Shown piece after piece: positions 6,192 to 27,989 of a stretch of DNA of 57,861 nt (its first letter is position 1; every line of letters begins with the position of its first letter). Origin of the DNA: a virus. The notes under the pieces are model-generated. The model worked only from the letters and a program-made list of their open reading frames with translations. It searched no databases and was not told the DNA's origin. The translations under genes and the position numbers were made by a program. Location of the stretch: IMG/VR virus record IMGVR_UViG_3300020147_000011, positions 1 to 57,861 of that record; one strand, given 5' to 3'.

Positions 6192-8111
6192 TCAGCGCTT
6201 CTTCTTCGCCGAGGTCTTTTTGGCTGCCTTCTTCGCTGACGCCGCGCGCTTGGCAGGCGCCGCCTTGGCGGGCTTCTTCGCCTTCCCTGACAGCGCCACT
6301 ACCTTGCCCTTGGCGACCGGAGGGCCGTCATAGCCCTTGGCGCGCAGCTGCAGCGGCAGCCAGCCGGTTAAGGCCACGTTCTCGACTGCGAACGCGACGA
6401 TGTCTGGCTTGCCGTTCTTGCCCTGCTGGCGGGCGATGTCGGGGCCCATCGCCTCCTCGATCGCCTTGAGGCACAGCGCCTTGCTGACGCCGCCGAAATA
6501 GTCCTTGGCATCGAAGGCGCCGCGGGCGGCGGCGTTGAAGGCCTTGGCGTCGATCGCGTTGACGATCGCCATGGCGCCGTCGTGCGGATCGTTATGGTCG
6601 GTCGACGTATGCTGGAAATCCAGCGCGTTGGCCGCCAGCTGCGTCAGCAGCGTGATCCGCTCGGCCGGCTTCAGCTTCTGCGCCAGCGGCAGCGCGCGCT
6701 TCATGTCTTCGGCGCCGAGCACGCTCCGCTCGTCACGGCTGCCGAGGCCTGAGATCGAGGCCTTGACGCCGCAGTTTGAATAGCAGCCGACGCCGGCGAT
6801 CAGCACGGACAGCGCGAGCTGCTCGTCCTGGATTAGCGCGGTTGCGGCGGCCTTAGTCAGCTGCACGGACAAACGATGCAGCAGCGCCTGCGAGATATCG
6901 GCTTCATCGGCCTCGGCCGGCGTTACTGCTGCGGCTTTCTTTCCCGGCTTGGCCGGCTCGTCTGCCGGAGTCTGTGACGGCAGCCTGGCTTCATCCGGCT
7001 TTTTCACGCCATAGAGGATGACGATGCGGCCGTTCTCGACGTCGACGATGCAGCCGAGCTGCTTTCTTTTCTTGGACTCCAAGCTGCGCGCGCGGACGGC
7101 GGAGGTGATTTCCGCCATCTCCGCTTCGAGCTTTTGCTGCAGTTCTTCCTGCTCGTTGTAGGAGAGATCGGAATCCTCTTCCAGCGACTGCAGCTTTGCG
7201 TCCAGGGCGTCATAACGCGCCTTTTCGTCGCCCTGATAGTCGAGATGTTTCGGCTGCGACTGCGACCAGTAGCGCGCGCCGTGCGGCAGGTCCTCGTTGA
7301 TCTCGGCCCAGGCCCAACCATCGGCCTGCAGTTCCTCGCATTTCGAGATCAGGAGCTGGCGCGCCATCTGCTTCAGCAGGACTTCGTTGCTGATGATATG
7401 GGAGGTGCCGAACAGGTCTTCCGTGACGTCGCCGCCGGCGTTGCGGTAGGCCTCGATGCCGACGACATCGAGCAGCTGGGTCACGCTGGCGTCGACTGCG
7501 CCGGCGCCGAGTTCCTTCTTGACGAAGGTTTCATAGAGCCGGCCCTCCGCGTGCAGCTTGTCGAAGGTCTTGTCCTGGGTGTCATGCCCCAGCGCCAGCG
7601 TGAAGGCGCGGGCGACCTCCGCCCTGATCTCCCCGGCCCGCCAGGCATCACGGATCTTCGGGCTGAGCCGGCCGAGCGCCAGCGCCTGGCGCACTTCCTT
7701 CTCCGTCATGCCGTACTGGCGAGCGATCTCTTCATGGGTCTTGCCGCGCTCCTCGAGCCGGGCAAAGGCCTCGTACTGGTCGACCGGGTGGAGCTGCTTG
7801 GCGGTGATCGCGGTCGTCAGCGAGAATTCGAACGCGCGGGTCTCGTCGACGTCGTGCAGGGTGCAGTTGATCGGCTGGTCGGAGTCCGCGGTGTAGATCA
7901 TGTGAAACGCCGCCAGCCGCCGGTTGCCGTTGGCGACCGAATAGAAGCCGCCGCCGGCGTCTTTCACGATCAGGTTTTCGATCTGGCCCTGCGCGTGCAG
8001 GTTGGCGGCGAGTTCGGCAATGCCGTCCTGCCGGCCGGCGACGCGGGCGTTGATGCCGGCGCCGTCGTCCTGGCCGAACTTCAGGCGGTTCAGTGGAATC
8101 TGCATGTCCAT
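6192..8111 (-). CDS. ParB/Spo0J-like protein with basic tail
   Basis: A 639-residue protein. The N-terminus (IPLNRLKFGQDD...INARVAG, then GQIENLIVKDAGGG, VANGNRRLAAF) is a ParB/sulfiredoxin-like domain. An HTH-type segment follows (EARLEERGKTHEEIARQYGMTEKEVRQALALGRLSPKI). The long C-terminal part has charged helices and ends in a Lys/Ala-rich histone-H1-like tail (residues about 600-639). Large ParB-like proteins of this kind are common in rhizobial prophages and plasmids. Roles could be DNA partition, replication or host takeover; no partner ParA is seen. The ATG at 8111 has GGAGG eight bases upstream; the longer ORF start would overlap the preceding small gene. Confidence 0.85.
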   Translation of the reverse strand: MDMQIPLNRLKFGQDDGAGINARVAGRQDGIAELAANLHAQGQIENLIVKDAGGGFYSVANGNRRLAAFHMIYTADSDQPINCTLHDVDETRAFEFSLTTAITAKQLHPVDQYEAFARLEERGKTHEEIARQYGMTEKEVRQALALGRLSPKIRDAWRAGEIRAEVARAFTLALGHDTQDKTFDKLHAEGRLYETFVKKELGAGAVDASVTQLLDVVGIEAYRNAGGDVTEDLFGTSHIISNEVLLKQMARQLLISKCEELQADGWAWAEINEDLPHGARYWSQSQPKHLDYQGDEKARYDALDAKLQSLEEDSDLSYNEQEELQQKLEAEMAEITSAVRARSLESKKRKQLGCIVDVENGRIVILYGVKKPDEARLPSQTPADEPAKPGKKAAAVTPAEADEADISQALLHRLSVQLTKAAATALIQDEQLALSVLIAGVGCYSNCGVKASISGLGSRDERSVLGAEDMKRALPLAQKLKPAERITLLTQLAANALDFQHTSTDHNDPHDGAMAIVNAIDAKAFNAAARGAFDAKDYFGGVSKALCLKAIEEAMGPDIARQQGKNGKPDIVAFAVENVALTGWLPLQLRAKGYDGPPVAKGKVVALSGKAKKPAKAAPAKRAASAKKAAKKTSAKKKR

Positions 8112-8115
8112 CGGA

Positions 8116-8280
8116 CTAGCCTCCCTGGCTGGTTGATTGTTCACGGATGAGTTGAGCGGTCTCGCGGTAGCGCTTGCGCAGCATTTCGCGGGTGCCGTCC
8201 GGACCGGTGGAGCCGATCGGGATCAGCGCCTCGAGGATGGCGATCTGGTTGAGCAGAATCTGGCGCTCGATGGCGGTCAT
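8116..8280 (-). CDS. 54-residue helical protein
   Basis: A short gene that is easily missed. It encodes MTAIERQILLNQIAILEALI, then PIGSTGPDGTREMLRKRYRE and an acidic/polar tail: two amphipathic helices with a Gly-rich turn. The ATG overlaps the nuclease-like gene's TGA (ATGA) and the ParB-like start lies five bases after its stop codon. Function unknown. Confidence 0.7.
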   Translation of the reverse strand: MTAIERQILLNQIAILEALIPIGSTGPDGTREMLRKRYRETAQLIREQSTSQGG

Positions 8281-19479: not shown

Positions 19480-19760
19480 GCGGCAAGCCGAAGAGAAGCG
19501 GCCGCATTGGCGAGCGCGGCAGGCCCGGCAATCTGCGAAGGCAGGCCGCCCGCGGCGTCGCCACGCCGACCGGCGAGGTCCAGGTGGTCTGTGCTTTCGA
19601 TCCGGAGACTTTTGCCGAGATCCGCGAGATGGCCGTTCGGACCCGGACCAGCTTTCGCGCCCAGGTGCGGCTGCTGGTCGAGTTCGGCCTTGAGGACATC
19701 AAGCTGGCCGAGGCGGAGCCGGCCGAGCTGCTGATCAACTGCCAGAAGGTTGAGCGATGA
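19476..19760 (+). CDS. ribbon-helix-helix-like small protein
   Basis: A 94-residue protein with a basic Gly/Arg-rich N-terminus (residues 1-30) and an Arc-like segment VQVVCAFDPETFAEIREMAVR then SFRAQVRLLVEFGLED. The strand plus two helices suit a ribbon-helix-helix DNA binder. It overlaps both neighbours and could regulate the operon or act in excision. Confidence 0.6.
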   Translation: MSGKPKRSGRIGERGRPGNLRRQAARGVATPTGEVQVVCAFDPETFAEIREMAVRTRTSFRAQVRLLVEFGLEDIKLAEAEPAELLINCQKVER

Positions 19761-20272
19761 TTCAGTCGAAGATTACATCGAACGTGATACCATTCGATGC
19801 GCGCCGGTTTTGGCTGCAGCGATATCCCGTGATCGAGGAAACATTCTTCAACCGCGACCAGGCGGCGGCATACTGCCGCCTCACAGTTCCGGCCTTCTCG
19901 GCAATGGTTCGCGGAAAGCTGTTGCCCGCTCGTTTGAAAGACGGCTGGTGGAAGGATCATCTGGATGAGGCAGCGGCCAAAATCGATCCACTGCTTTTCG
20001 ACCGTAACGTTTACGGCTCGGAGGTGTACTTCATTGAGTGCGAGTGTTTTTGCAAGATCGGTTTTTCAGCCTTTCCGCCTTCAAGAATGGCCGACCTGCA
20101 GGCCGCGACACCGTTTCAACTCCGATTGCTTCACACGATCCGCGGCGACGAACGGATAGAGCAGCAGCTTCATGACCGTTTTGCCGCCCTGCGGGTCCGT
20201 GGAGAATGGTTCAACAAAGCGCCAGTGCTTCTTGCCTACATTGATTGGCTGAAGGCGAACGGTACCAAATGA
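19757..20272 (+). CDS. T5orf172-type protein with N-terminal HTH
   Basis: A 171-residue protein. Residues 28-68 (ETFFNRDQAAAYCRLTVPAF, GKLLP) look like an excisionase/MerR-like HTH. Residues 90-165 form a T5orf172/MUG113 module of the GIY-YIG superfamily: VYFIECECFCKIGFSAFPPSRMADLQ, QLRLLHTIRGDERIEQQLHDRF and RGEWF. Phage proteins of this kind are suspected DNA nickases or binding proteins. Notably the gene after the integrase also carries a GIY-YIG domain. It overlaps the excisionase-like gene by four bases. Confidence 0.7.
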   Translation: MIQSKITSNVIPFDARRFWLQRYPVIEETFFNRDQAAAYCRLTVPAFSAMVRGKLLPARLKDGWWKDHLDEAAAKIDPLLFDRNVYGSEVYFIECECFCKIGFSAFPPSRMADLQAATPFQLRLLHTIRGDERIEQQLHDRFAALRVRGEWFNKAPVLLAYIDWLKANGTK

Positions 20273-20664
20273 CCAACCTTTCCGCATCAGGCATCGAGGA
20301 CGTCCCCCCCCACGTCCTAGCCGCCTTCGAGGGACACCCGCATCTGACGATGCCGCATCTCGCTAAGGTCCTGGAAATGGACAGGAAGACGCTGGACCGG
20401 CACCGGGAGGCCGATAATCTGCCCGTGCATATCAAGGGAACCGGGCTTGAGCGCCGGCACTATGTCTGTACGTTGGCCGACGTTGCCGAGTTCTACCGCC
20501 GCACGGGGCCAGCATGTCAGTATTCCGCGTCAAGGGATCGCCCTACTTCCAGTTCGATTTCCAGCTCCAAGGTCATCGCTTTTACGGGTCCACGCGGTGC
20601 ACGAATGAACGTGAGGCCCGCGAAGACGAGAAGGCCCGCCGGGCAGAGGCCGCCGTCCTCGTAA
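20269..20664 (+). CDS. excisionase-like HTH protein reading into int
   Basis: The first 82 residues (HLTMPHLAKVLEMDRKTLDRHREADNLPVHIKGTG, then RRHYVCTLADVAEFYRR) are a MerR/excisionase-type HTH, normal for the gene before int. The frame then runs 151 bases into the integrase gene, adding about 50 residues of Ser/Arg-rich sequence that look like a shadow reading. At other junctions here the downstream start ATGA supplies the stop; the int start is ATGTCA, so that stop codon has been lost. The natural protein probably ended at about 20517. Confidence 0.65.
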   Translation: MTNLSASGIEDVPPHVLAAFEGHPHLTMPHLAKVLEMDRKTLDRHREADNLPVHIKGTGLERRHYVCTLADVAEFYRRTGPACQYSASRDRPTSSSISSSKVIAFTGPRGARMNVRPAKTRRPAGQRPPSS

Positions 20665-21659
20665 AGCAGGCGCTCGCCGCCGGCCGCAAGCCGATGACGT
20701 TCGGCGCCGCCTGCGATCGCTGGTGGGACCAGGTTGGCAGCCACGGCAGCGATCCCGACCTCAAGCGCGCGCTGGACTGGCTGAAGGATCAGATCGGCCA
20801 TCAGGTGGCCCTGCACACCGTCAACGACGACATGGTTTCCCGGGCCGTGGAAGCCCGCAGGAAGTGCGTCATGCGCGCCGGCCGCGATGCAAAGGGCACG
20901 CAGCTCTACCGCCCCCTCTCCGCGCGCACGGTCAACAAGACCGTACCCAGCCTGCTCCGCCGCGTTATGAACCGGGCGCGCAAGGCCTGGTCGGTCGCGA
21001 TCCTGGTCGAGCCGAACTGGAAAGAGCACTTCCTCGCCGAGCGGAAGCGGCCGGTGCGCGAGATCACGGCCGCGGAAGATGCCGCGCTCGACGGGATCGA
21101 AAGCCTTGAGTATGCCGGGCTGCGCGAGTTCGCCGAGATCATGGGCCTGCGGCGGAAGGAACTGCTGCTCACCTGGCCGCAGGTCGATTTCGACAAGGCC
21201 ACCATCAGCATCATCGGCAAGGGCGGCGTGCCGGCGATCCTGCCGCTCACGAAGCGGGCCTATCACATCCTCTGGGGCCTGCGCGGGCACGACAAGATGC
21301 ACGTCTTCACCTTCGTGGCCCAGCGCACCAGGCGCTGCCCGAAGACCAAGCGCGACTTCGTCAAGGGCCAACGCTACCCGATGACCTATTTCGGCATCGG
21401 CACCAACCGGCGCAGGAAGTGGTCCAAGGCGGGCGTGGATGCGCGGCTGCACGACACCCGCCACACGACAGGCCAGCGCGCGCTGCGCACCACGGGCAAC
21501 CTGCGGCTCGTACAGCAGCTGCTCAGGCACACCGAGATCCGGACCACCGCGAAGTTCTACACCGACACTACTATGGCGGACCTGCGGGCTGGGATGGAGG
21601 CCGTCGAACAATCAAAGCCTGCAAAGCCCGATCAACCAAAAAAGGTGACTGGCGAATGA
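20514..21659 (+). CDS. int: tyrosine-family phage integrase
   Basis: A 381-residue recombinase. The N-terminal 40 residues (MSVFRVKGSPYFQFDFQLQG) are the arm-site-binding type. A core-binding domain follows. The catalytic set is complete: Arg213/214 (GLRRKE), Lys236, His313 and Arg316 (LHDTRHT), His339 and Tyr349 (HTEIRTTAKFY). It should integrate at the tRNA-Arg core 22371-22415. Its start overlaps the excisionase-like ORF and its TGA overlaps the next ATG (ATGA). It is under the repressor-controlled promoter at 17846. Confidence 0.95.
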   Translation: MSVFRVKGSPYFQFDFQLQGHRFYGSTRCTNEREAREDEKARRAEAAVLVKQALAAGRKPMTFGAACDRWWDQVGSHGSDPDLKRALDWLKDQIGHQVALHTVNDDMVSRAVEARRKCVMRAGRDAKGTQLYRPLSARTVNKTVPSLLRRVMNRARKAWSVAILVEPNWKEHFLAERKRPVREITAAEDAALDGIESLEYAGLREFAEIMGLRRKELLLTWPQVDFDKATISIIGKGGVPAILPLTKRAYHILWGLRGHDKMHVFTFVAQRTRRCPKTKRDFVKGQRYPMTYFGIGTNRRRKWSKAGVDARLHDTRHTTGQRALRTTGNLRLVQQLLRHTEIRTTAKFYTDTTMADLRAGMEAVEQSKPAKPDQPKKVTGE

Positions 21660-22336
21660 GCGTTTTCAAGGTCCGGAACTCGCCCTACTATCAGTATGAC
21701 TTCCGTCGAGAAGGCCACCGCTATTCTGGATCGACCAAGTGCCTCAAACTGGCCGATGCGGAAGCCTTTGAAATCGCGCAGATCGGGTTGGTCGAGCGCC
21801 GCAATGAGTCACTGAAGCTGGCTGCGATCCTTCCGCGGCATGTCATACGCGAGCCCCTTGGCGACGGATGGCGATATTACTTCATCGTGCCGAGCAAGGC
21901 CCGCAAGGCCGGTTGTCCGGTTCGCAATGAGAGCCTTGGCACTGTCTTAGATACCGCCATAGCGCGGGCCGAGGATCACCTGCTGCCCGAGTTCGACGCA
22001 TGGCATGCGAAGCACAAAACCACGATGGGGGTGAATGGTGTCACCGAGCGGTCAGACCCTCCGCTCGTTGGGGTCTATCTGCTGTTGCTCAAAGGCAAGG
22101 TCGTCTACATCGGATCTAGCAAGAACATGCCCAGGCGCGTTAGGCAGCATCGGAACGGCAGCCGACCGTTCGACAACGCCTACTATATTGCAGCCTCGGA
22201 AAGCGAGATGAGGAGCCTGGAGGCCTCTCTGATCAAGGCGATGCTGCCGACGCAGAACACGAGCGGGATTGCGCGACGGCAAAAAGCCCCATGCCCAGCC
22301 CCAGAGTACCCCGACGCACCATCTTCAAGCCTTTGA
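21656..22336 (+). CDS. chimera: integrase N-terminal arm domain plus GIY-YIG nuclease
   Basis: A 226-residue protein. Residues 1-38 (MSVFKVRNSPYYQYDFRREG...GSTKC) repeat the start of the neighbouring integrase with about half the residues identical. Residues 45-120 form a middle segment of unknown type (YYFIVPSKARKAGC). Residues 138-205 are a GIY-YIG domain: GVYLLLLKGKVVYIGSSKNMPRRVRQH, with the Y, YIG, Arg and later Glu. Known GIY-YIG enzymes cut one DNA strand or make double-strand breaks. The integrase-type arm domain may deliver it to attP arm sites. The gene ends 34 bases before the att core. Confidence 0.8.
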   Translation: MSVFKVRNSPYYQYDFRREGHRYSGSTKCLKLADAEAFEIAQIGLVERRNESLKLAAILPRHVIREPLGDGWRYYFIVPSKARKAGCPVRNESLGTVLDTAIARAEDHLLPEFDAWHAKHKTTMGVNGVTERSDPPLVGVYLLLLKGKVVYIGSSKNMPRRVRQHRNGSRPFDNAYYIAASESEMRSLEASLIKAMLPTQNTSGIARRQKAPCPAPEYPDAPSSSL

Positions 22337-22370
22337 TGCACTGAGTAAAAATCGCATCGTGACCCACGTC

Positions 22371-22415
22371 TTTCGATTCCGAGGGTCGGGAGTTCGAATC
22401 TCTCCGAGCGCGCCA
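22371..22415 (+). other. attP core: 3' part of tRNA-Arg(TCG)
   Basis: These 45 bases read as a tRNA from the anticodon loop to CCA: loop TTTCGAT (anticodon TCG), stem TCCGA, variable GGGTC, T stem GGGAG, T loop TTCGAAT, CTCTC, acceptor strand CGAGCGC, discriminator G and CCA at 22413-22415. No 5' half precedes it. This is the classic core of a tyrosine integrase that uses a tRNA gene and restores its 3' end. Because only the 3' part is present next to int, it is either attP in the phage form or the int-side junction of a prophage. Confidence 0.8.
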
Positions 22416-22597
22416 CGTCTACCCGCCTACGTTCATTGAAAACATTGAGAAAAGGCGCGGGAACAAGGCCGCTCAGCACCGGTCCGGAAGGCGAACGCAA
22501 GGGGATCAAAGGTCACCTTGTGTTGCGCTAGCGGACGGTGAGTCCCAGAAAAAGCCCCAGACTCCGCTTGCGGACCGTTGCGACCTATATACCGGCC

Positions 22598-24416: not shown

Positions 24417-24721
24417 TGGGCGCCAGTTTCGCCGTGTCGCCGCTGATCCTGTCCGCGATCTGCGTGGCGGAGAGGGATGGCAATCCGCCGATGACCGCCG
24501 ACGAGATTGCCTTCATGCTCGAATTGCCGCGGGAATTTATTGACCCCGCCCTGGATCAGCTGGTCCGGAACGGCTCGATTGTGCGCGCTGGCGACCATTA
24601 TCGCTATGACAAAGACCGATCGCTCACCGCATCCGAACTGGCCGAGATCGAACTGCTCCACGACGAATTGCAGGCGATCGTTCCCCTTCTGGAAGCAATT
24701 CCGCCGCGTCTGGACAGTTGA
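24416..24721 (+). CDS. winged-helix-like hypothetical protein
   Basis: A 101-residue protein with the order of a winged helix: MTADEIAFMLELPREFIDPALDQLVRNGSIVRAGDHYRYD. A C-terminal helical segment with acidic residues follows. It may be a small DNA-binding protein co-expressed with the upstream gene and the ligase domain gene that begins 21 bases downstream. Confidence 0.65.
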   Translation: MGASFAVSPLILSAICVAERDGNPPMTADEIAFMLELPREFIDPALDQLVRNGSIVRAGDHYRYDKDRSLTASELAEIELLHDELQAIVPLLEAIPPRLDS

Positions 24722-24741
24722 GGGTCAGTCAATCCCCGCTC

Positions 24742-25335
24742 ATGTTGAAGTTTGAGTATTGCAAGCCGGTCAACGCCAAGGCCGTTCCGACCGGCGACGA
24801 ATGGATTCACGAGGTCAAATACGACGGCTACCGCGGGCGCATCGTCCGCGACGGCCGTGACGTCAAGCTGCTGTCGAAAAGCGGCCTCGACTGGGCCTGG
24901 CGCTTTCCGTGGATCGTCGAGACCGCGCTGAAGATCCGGCAGAGCCAGTTCATCATCGACGGCGAGATCTGCGTGCTCGACGTCCAGGGCATCTCCGATT
25001 TCAACGCCCTGCATTCGAACAAGCACAATGACGAAGCGCAGCTTTACGCGTTCGACCTGGTATCGATCGGCGGGGAGGATCTGCGCGACGTGCCCCTGCT
25101 CGATCGCAAGGGCCGGCTGGAAAAGCTGCTACGCCGCCGCGTACAGGGAATCTTCATGGCGCCCTTCGAGCGCGGCGAGATCGGGCCGGACCTCTTCACC
25201 GCCGCCTGTCGCATGCGGCTCGAGGGCATCGTGTCAAAGCACGAGGGGCGGCGGTACCGGGCCCGCACCTGCGACTGGGTCAAGGTGAAGAACCGACAGC
25301 ACCCGGCGTTCGCCCGGGTGATGGACCAGTTCTGA
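24742..25335 (+). CDS. minimal ATP-dependent DNA ligase domain
   Basis: A 197-residue protein with the nucleotidyltransferase core of ATP-dependent ligases: motif I KYDGYR (active-site Lys), IDGEICVLD (motif III region), AFDLVSIGGEDLRDVPL, GIVSKHEG (motif IV) and WVKVK (motif V). It ends at motif V, with no OB-fold domain, so it is much shorter than LigD- or T4-type ligases. Several Bradyrhizobium chromosomes carry similar minimal copies. It may seal nicks or work with a partner domain. A TTG start at 24718 is possible. Confidence 0.85.
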   Translation: MLKFEYCKPVNAKAVPTGDEWIHEVKYDGYRGRIVRDGRDVKLLSKSGLDWAWRFPWIVETALKIRQSQFIIDGEICVLDVQGISDFNALHSNKHNDEAQLYAFDLVSIGGEDLRDVPLLDRKGRLEKLLRRRVQGIFMAPFERGEIGPDLFTAACRMRLEGIVSKHEGRRYRARTCDWVKVKNRQHPAFARVMDQF

Positions 25336-26919: not shown

Positions 26920-27729
26920 TCAATGAACCGTGTGCGCCGCCGGGTTTTCCTTTAACCTGAGATCGAGATAAACGTTGTACTCGCCGCATTGGATATATTG
27001 AAAATCGAAGTCTTGCAGAGCTTTCAGCACCTTCGACTCCGCTTCCGCAGAATGTATCTCGACACAGAAGTTGCGAACGAACTTCAACCAACGTTTAGCA
27101 TCCATATTAAAAAGCGTCGCCTCGGCACCTTCGATGTCGATCTTCAAGATATCGATGATCGGTTTGGGGCACATCTTGAGAACGGTCGGCATATCGATCG
27201 CCTCGACGTCAGCATTTTCAAGGTCGCTCGTAGGAGCGACCTGAGTTGCCCATTCCCGACCATCGCGAAAAGCTCCACGAGAAAGCGATAAACGGGTTGA
27301 GCGATCCCATATGGCCGCTTCAACTATCCGAGCGCGAGGACCATATGCAGCAAGATTTTGAGCGCAGATATAGGCGTTATTCGGATCAGGTTCGACAGCC
27401 AACACGAAAGCGTCGGGAAAGGCATTTAAGAAAAAGACGCTTGAGTATCCGACGTTCGCTCCCAAATCGACGATCACTCGAGCGGACTGCGTTCGAGAGG
27501 CAATTTCGGACAGGATTTGTTCGATGAAAATCGCATCGAACACCTCAGGATCGCTGCTACCACCTAATCTCATAAGCACTGAATGCCCGGAGCTTGGCAC
27601 ACGCGCCAGTCTCATGGTCTTAGGAAGAAACCTGCTACCGTTGCTTCCACGGATCACGCACCAGCGCAGTCCGCTGAAAACTCCCAAAACGCTTATGCAA
27701 CGCTGTAGCTTCCTGAAATGATTGCGCAT
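26920..27729 (-). CDS. FkbM-family methyltransferase
   Basis: A 269-residue protein. VIVDLGANVGYSSVFFLNAFP is the SAM-binding motif I; AVEPDPNNAY follows at the next strand; the FkbM signature IIDILKIDIEGAEATLF is complete, ending with VEIHSAEAE. FkbM enzymes methylate sugars, lipids or other small targets; in phages they may modify the cell surface after lysogeny. GC is visibly lower here than in neighbours, which suggests separate transfer. The ATG at 27729 is used; a GTG two codons earlier is possible. Confidence 0.85.
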   Translation of the reverse strand: MRNHFRKLQRCISVLGVFSGLRWCVIRGSNGSRFLPKTMRLARVPSSGHSVLMRLGGSSDPEVFDAIFIEQILSEIASRTQSARVIVDLGANVGYSSVFFLNAFPDAFVLAVEPDPNNAYICAQNLAAYGPRARIVEAAIWDRSTRLSLSRGAFRDGREWATQVAPTSDLENADVEAIDMPTVLKMCPKPIIDILKIDIEGAEATLFNMDAKRWLKFVRNFCVEIHSAEAESKVLKALQDFDFQYIQCGEYNVYLDLRLKENPAAHTVH

Positions 27730-27989
27730 CGACACCTACGCGAAACATCGAAATCAATGCAGAAAACTAAATGATCGCGCTGCAATGCTTAGTTCGTCAA
27801 TGGATCTCGCCGGTACCTAGCCGGGATCGTGCGAGGCACGTCGTCGCAGGCAACCTGGCGAAGTTGAGCCGGATTGCTCGTCTTTGAGGTGCGCGGTGAG
27901 AGTCATCGCACGGCAATCAGGCTAACGGACGCTGGGCTCCAGAAGATGCGTTCGCCAATCTAAAGACCGCTTGTGAAAGGCTGAAGTTG

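Follow-up and report, generated by a model that had tools for sequence, protein, structure and literature searches.

A GIY-YIG nuclease joined to two integrase N-terminal domains at the junction of a phage integrase gene and its attachment site

The viral DNA analysed here (57,861 nucleotides in full, hereafter the window) carries, directly after its tyrosine integrase gene (int), a gene that joins two domains resembling integrase N-termini to a GIY-YIG nuclease. At the level of sequence comparison, we could show the fusion of these domains, the intact catalytic residues, what looks like a clean insertion, the position of a tandem repeat, the reassortment of nuclease and integrase, and a further construction that involves a different integrase type. 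We put at about one half the probability that the gene encodes a homing-type, possibly partly domesticated, GIY-YIG endonuclease with DNA-binding domains acquired from tyrosine integrases. The findings suggest that the nuclease is selfish or weapon-like and is directed at the sites where related phages integrate.

Domain composition of the nuclease

The start of the nuclease gene overlaps the stop of the integrase gene by four bases (ATGA, 21656-21659), so the nuclease is probably co-translated with int. Its parts are as follows.

21656..22336, + strand: chimeric nuclease gene (226 aa) with arm-type domain A, arm-type domain B and a GIY-YIG nuclease, as predicted
21656..21829, + strand: domain A (residues 1-58), 51% identical over residues 1-39 to the N-terminus of the adjacent integrase; predicted arm-type fold
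21830..22015, + strand: domain B (residues 59-120), 33-61% identical to integrase N-termini; predicted lambda Int-like fold
22058..22264, + strand: GIY-YIG nuclease domain (residues 135-203); Pfam PF01541, catalytic columns kept

A search within the window matched residues 1-39 of domain A to the adjacent integrase N-terminus (51% identity, E 6e-10), with the SPYxQxDF and GST blocks common to both. This agrees with a preliminary description of the same DNA, which had seen residues 1-38 repeat the integrase N-terminus. That description also recognised the nuclease domain at residues 138-205, close to where we find it, and left residues 59-116 blank; these turned out to be a second integrase domain. 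They share 33-61% identity with the N-termini of another tyrosine-integrase family, which was found mainly in Bradyrhizobium and its relatives. All matches inspected were integrases, some of them frameshifted or ended by a contig edge, and scans with domain B likewise yielded only integrases, some frameshifted. Judged from these alignments, domain B is the N-terminal domain of a second tyrosine integrase, from an unrelated subfamily. For L011, L013 and L014, an apparent reach of the match into the GIY part was spurious, their ORFs being integrases. As a separate observation, B-type integrase genes are frameshifted or broken in Bradyrhizobium and relatives (L022, L025, L026, L031, L042, L052 and L054).

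Residues 139-170 matched the Pfam GIY-YIG family (24.9 bits against a curated cutoff of 22.6), and residues 135-201 aligned with the GIY-YIG domain of UvrC. In the latter alignment, Y141, Y151, G153, R161, E189 and N201 fill the catalytic columns. These residues, whose retention the preliminary description had left to an alignment, are invariant among four homologues. The T5orf172 family scored below its cutoff of 20 against the ORF (14 bits, E 0.075). The ORF gave no Phage_integrase match, that is, no R..HxxR..Y catalytic domain, residues 135-203 being GIY-YIG; nor does it contain a RepA_N-type domain, residues 1-116 being integrase N-terminal domains. No Pfam arm-domain family matched A or B in sequence searches, and no curated family covers either. 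Among PADLOC defence models there was no full-length match, and the GIY stretch alone matched parts of UzuA and PDC-S14.

The AlphaFold2 model of the ORF had a mean pLDDT of 80, with 88-97 across A and B in 10-residue blocks. Both domains were modelled as a small β-sheet followed by a long helix. Modelled domain A resembles the arm-type domains of P4-like/HPI integrases (3rmp, Z 4.8, rmsd 2.2; also 3jtz and 3ju0), and modelled domain B resembles the lambda Int N-domain (1kjk, Z 5.3, rmsd 2.5, 49 of 49 residues). The modelled C-terminal part matches UvrC, EndoII and I-TevI. Fold-match Z scores of 4.2-5.3 for A and B are modest and insufficient alone; they agree with the sequence evidence. Together, sequence and model point to an integrase arm-type fold in both domains. 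If the models are right, A and B share their fold with the arm-type domains of lambda Int (1kjk, 2wcc) and of P4-like/HPI integrases (3rmp, 3jtz, 3ju0), and differ from them in preceding a nuclease rather than a core-binding or tyrosine catalytic domain.

The integration module and the insertion

The nuclease gene lies among the following elements.

20269..20553, + strand: HTH protein overlapping int; phrog_66 (E 0.008) and HTH_17 (E 0.006), both weak
20514..21659, + strand: tyrosine integrase with an A-type N-terminus; Pfam PF00589 (E 5.6e-14), phrog_1
22286..22305, + strand: putative P-arm tandem site within the 3' end of the nuclease gene, from the tandem pattern and its position in relatives
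22358..22415, + strand: att core, the 3' end of a tRNA gene, from comparison with relatives
22542..22561, + strand: putative P'-arm tandem site, from the tandem pattern

The HTH protein is 59-73% identical in relatives and is kept in those that are nuclease-free; it is likely an excisionase or regulator. Further upstream, at 19757-20272 and three places from the nuclease gene, the preliminary description had noted a T5orf172 domain, and this gene indeed joins an HTH-like N-terminus to a MUG113/T5orf172 domain. A homologue (33%) occupies the same place in the nuclease-free locus L097 and is absent from the other loci examined. The gene is probably a separate accessory gene, and the two nicking-type proteins that had been described as flanking int probably do not form one system. 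Elsewhere in the window, two ORFs beyond attP are possibly cargo: one resembling a short ATP-dependent DNA ligase (24718-25335, phrog_114) and one resembling a methyltransferase (26920-27735, phrog_8156). A large ParB-like protein is encoded on the minus strand at 6192-8144 in the phage early region (phrog_7783 over its full length; phrog_1033).

In four relatives (L093, L094, L095 and L097), int runs straight into the att core, with no nuclease there. This core spans 45-58 bp and is 95-98% identical. In the window it starts 21 bases after the nuclease stop, not 34 as first described, and the putative P-arm site falls inside the gene. Homology between the window and the L097 record extends over 20314-21598 (the HTH gene and the integrase body) and resumes over 22326-22415; these flanks lie 727 bp apart in the window and 48 bp apart in the L097 record. 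On this comparison, the nuclease gene looks like a clean insertion of about 680 bp between the integrase body and the putative P arm. No GIY relative was found anywhere in the full records of L093, L095, L096 and L097.

A generic repeat search at attP was uninformative, and the tandem repeat emerged upon comparing relatives. It has a 12-bp period and the consensus AGYCCCAGA, and occurs exactly twice in the window, flanking the core, with 0 expected from shuffled sequences. The same tandem occurs exactly twice in L139 (L097 record) and in L140 (L093 record), and its two copies lie 256 bp apart in the window and 254 bp apart in each of the others. Of 17 nuclease-free A-type integrases, 12 had a tandem YCCC repeat in the final 110 bp of the gene, compared with 1 of 136 integrase-body pieces (Fisher p about 4e-13, an optimistic value given the relatedness of the loci and a pattern that was chosen once some of them had been seen). 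The P-side copy thus described lies in the 3' end of int in nuclease-free relatives and in the 3' end of the nuclease gene here. In both the window and the homologous locus L092, the repeat sits in the nuclease tail and the int tail is without it; in a third locus, L134, there is a degenerate repeat in the nuclease tail only, which fails the strict pattern, and none in the int tail. From the position and repetition of the tandem, we infer that the repeats are arm-type sites of the integrase and that insertion of the nuclease gene separated the P arm from the integrase body. Across the A-type integrases L093-L106, a tandem YCCC with a period of 11-12 bp in the 3' end of int is likely a P-arm site, and a brief look at the literature found no description of such a repeat.

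Homologues, a second architecture and reassortment

The preliminary description had proposed looking for the same fusion next to other integrases, and homologues were found beside several. A scan with the A block identified L092, a full-length homologue (52% over residues 1-201) that directly follows its own integrase and overlaps it by four bases, GTGA. A scan with the GIY block identified L134, an A-B-GIY protein 3' of an A-type integrase. The integrases preceding these homologues are 35% (L092) and 69% (L134) identical to that of the window. Full-length homologues are 48-63% identical and their frames are open. In L135 and L136, the GIY domain (58-64% identity) is joined to a third type of integrase N-terminus, giving a C-GIY protein. 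The C-type N-terminus follows the pattern 'LPDYV..DRHGHARFYFRRTG..LPGLPWSPEFMAAY', and the C-GIY gene lies directly before an integrase that itself has this N-terminus. Within the same bacterial order, 19 of 150 sampled genomes have integrases of this type. In L142 the upstream gene meets int by an ATGA overlap, and in L135 the nuclease lies between the two, which looks like a second clean addition of one gene. No arm sites were identified in the C-type module, where the nuclease gene is 5' of int. The C-GIY protein was modelled poorly (pLDDT 52), and its model was left out of the fold comparison.

The known carriers are five contigs with four distinct proteins, and the GIY model recovers all five. 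A final scan added no further members, and the fusion was not seen in any of roughly 1,100 alphaproteobacterial genomes searched at the level of order, class and families. With the nuclease ORF as single query, viral and genome contigs gave no match. Most weak matches of one genome search had the length and matched region expected of UvrC. The nuclease family is real but rare, with two architectures, in each of which the domain type is matched to the neighbouring integrase.

Among the three A-B-GIY loci, the closest nuclease pair is L092 and L134 (63% amino-acid identity, bootstrap 0.994), and the closest integrase pair is the window and L134 (69%, bootstrap 1.0), the L092 integrase being 35% identical to the others. 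These conflicting phylogenies suggest that nuclease and integrase have reassorted, unless rates differ strongly. Pairwise dN among the three A-B-GIY proteins is 0.36-0.55, well below a saturated dS, which fits purifying selection. At the DNA level, identity between the A domain of a nuclease and that of its own integrase is 53-67%, from which the join appears to be old; a recent duplication of the 5' end of int as the origin of A was rejected on the same figures. Sequence-level tracking of the nuclease A domain to its own integrase was not supported (44-56% amino-acid identity), and the match of A to integrase thus holds at the level of domain type only.

Homing, interference and the known systems

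Several features of homing endonucleases are found here: an endonuclease class with its catalytic residues, a precise insertion together with empty alleles, and incongruence across three loci. That the domain type agrees with the neighbouring integrase in each of two separate constructions also argues for homing. We infer arm-repeat binding, cleavage, self-protection and homing along the following lines. Domain A would bind the tandem arm-type repeat of attP, and domain B would add a second DNA contact. The GIY-YIG domain would cut near the arm repeat, probably in the conserved 3' end of int in phages without the gene. Once cut, such a phage would be repaired with a nuclease-carrying copy as template and would thereby receive the gene between int and the P arm; the insertion would separate the cut site from the binding site, leaving the carrier protected. 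Against homing, both tandem repeats persist in the carrier's own attP, so that self-protection must depend on the putative cut site next to the P arm. The location of the C-type gene 5' of int, the degenerate repeat of L134 and the small number of carrier contigs (five) also speak against it. More generally, bioinformatic data alone often cannot show active homing of a nuclease gene (PMC10448857).

Free-standing homing endonucleases of the I-TevI and phage T4 type resemble the window protein in combining a GIY-YIG nuclease with separate DNA-binding modules, in their clean intergenic insertion by conserved genes, in their empty alleles and in their reassortment. Their nuclease domain is N-terminal, whereas that of the window protein is C-terminal. 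The window protein also differs in that its DNA-binding part would consist of two integrase arm-type domains, its gene lies at the int-attP junction, and its homing is presumed.

The main rival, which we judge unlikely, is an interference nuclease that acts without homing and cuts attP or the int-attP junction in temperate phages or satellites that compete with the carrier and share its integrase type. By analogy with Odn of phage ICP1, the outcome would be superinfection exclusion or anti-integration immunity. Odn is a nuclease with a RepA-like/RepA_N domain that cuts a satellite's replication origin (PMC8263062), a precedent in which the borrowed domain goes with cleavage of the cognate origin. 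Some T5orf172 nucleases related to Odn carry two RepA_N domains of different origins (PMC10448857), much as A is followed by B. The domain type matched to the neighbouring integrase and the selection on the protein fit interference as well. However, the carrier's own attP has the same repeats and would need protection, and homing predicts the precise placement of the insertion at the P arm, along with empty alleles, neither of which interference needs. Homing and Odn-like interference need not exclude each other.

The closest functional precedent is Odn. It shares with the window protein a GIY-YIG-superfamily nuclease and a DNA-binding domain from another element's core machinery and, among its relatives, sometimes two borrowed domains of different origin in one protein. 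The design principle is thus already known from Odn (PMC8263062) and from nucleases with two RepA_N domains (PMC10448857). Unlike Odn, the window protein borrows what appear to be integrase arm-type domains rather than RepA_N, its nuclease belongs to the GIY-YIG family PF01541 and not to T5orf172, and its expected target is attP rather than a replication origin, with the gene adjoining that presumed target. The preliminary description knew of no such system, and we likewise found no earlier report: neither a nuclease fused to integrase arm domains nor a homing nuclease at an int-attP junction was described in the open-access literature that we covered, which is weak evidence.

A helper of recombination, which would nick attP DNA or compete with Int for arm sites and so set the direction or timing of integration and excision, seems distinctly improbable to us. 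The four-base overlap with int and probable co-translation, the position next to attP and the modelled arm-type fold are in its favour. However, relatives with up to 81% identical integrases, the same HTH gene and the same att core do without the nuclease, the A domains do not track their partners (44-56% identity to their own integrases'), and nuclease and integrase reassort. The preliminary description had proposed a nuclease aimed at attP arm sites that might promote excision; a nuclease with an arm-type domain beside attP is what we find, and integration or excision is unlikely to require it, since the same HTH-int-attP module occurs in relatives that lack the nuclease.

A non-functional by-product, in which a fragment of an integrase 5' end and a nuclease fragment joined by chance and drifted, would fit the rarity of the protein and the position of A and B outside curated families, but is very hard to credit given homologues that are full-length and 48-63% identical, keep their frames open and retain the catalytic residues, dN well below dS, and an independent construction with another integrase type.

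Beyond the homing-type endonuclease that we prefer for the window gene, we tentatively entertain, at a little less than even odds, a broader reading: an integration-directed GIY-YIG family that carries arm domains of the neighbouring integrase's class, cuts attP or the int-attP junction in whichever phage or satellite has an integrase of that class, was built at least twice (A-B-GIY and C-GIY), and serves as a weapon or gene drive inside the integration module. The comparison also provides candidate arm sites for this integrase group, in the form of the tandem YCCC repeat coded in the 3' end of int. If the proposed activity is true, the principle of Odn, a nuclease using another protein's DNA address, would extend from replication origins to attachment sites, and integrase arm domains would be exchangeable targeting modules. 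The spread of a nuclease through phage integration modules could then be tested directly on this family.
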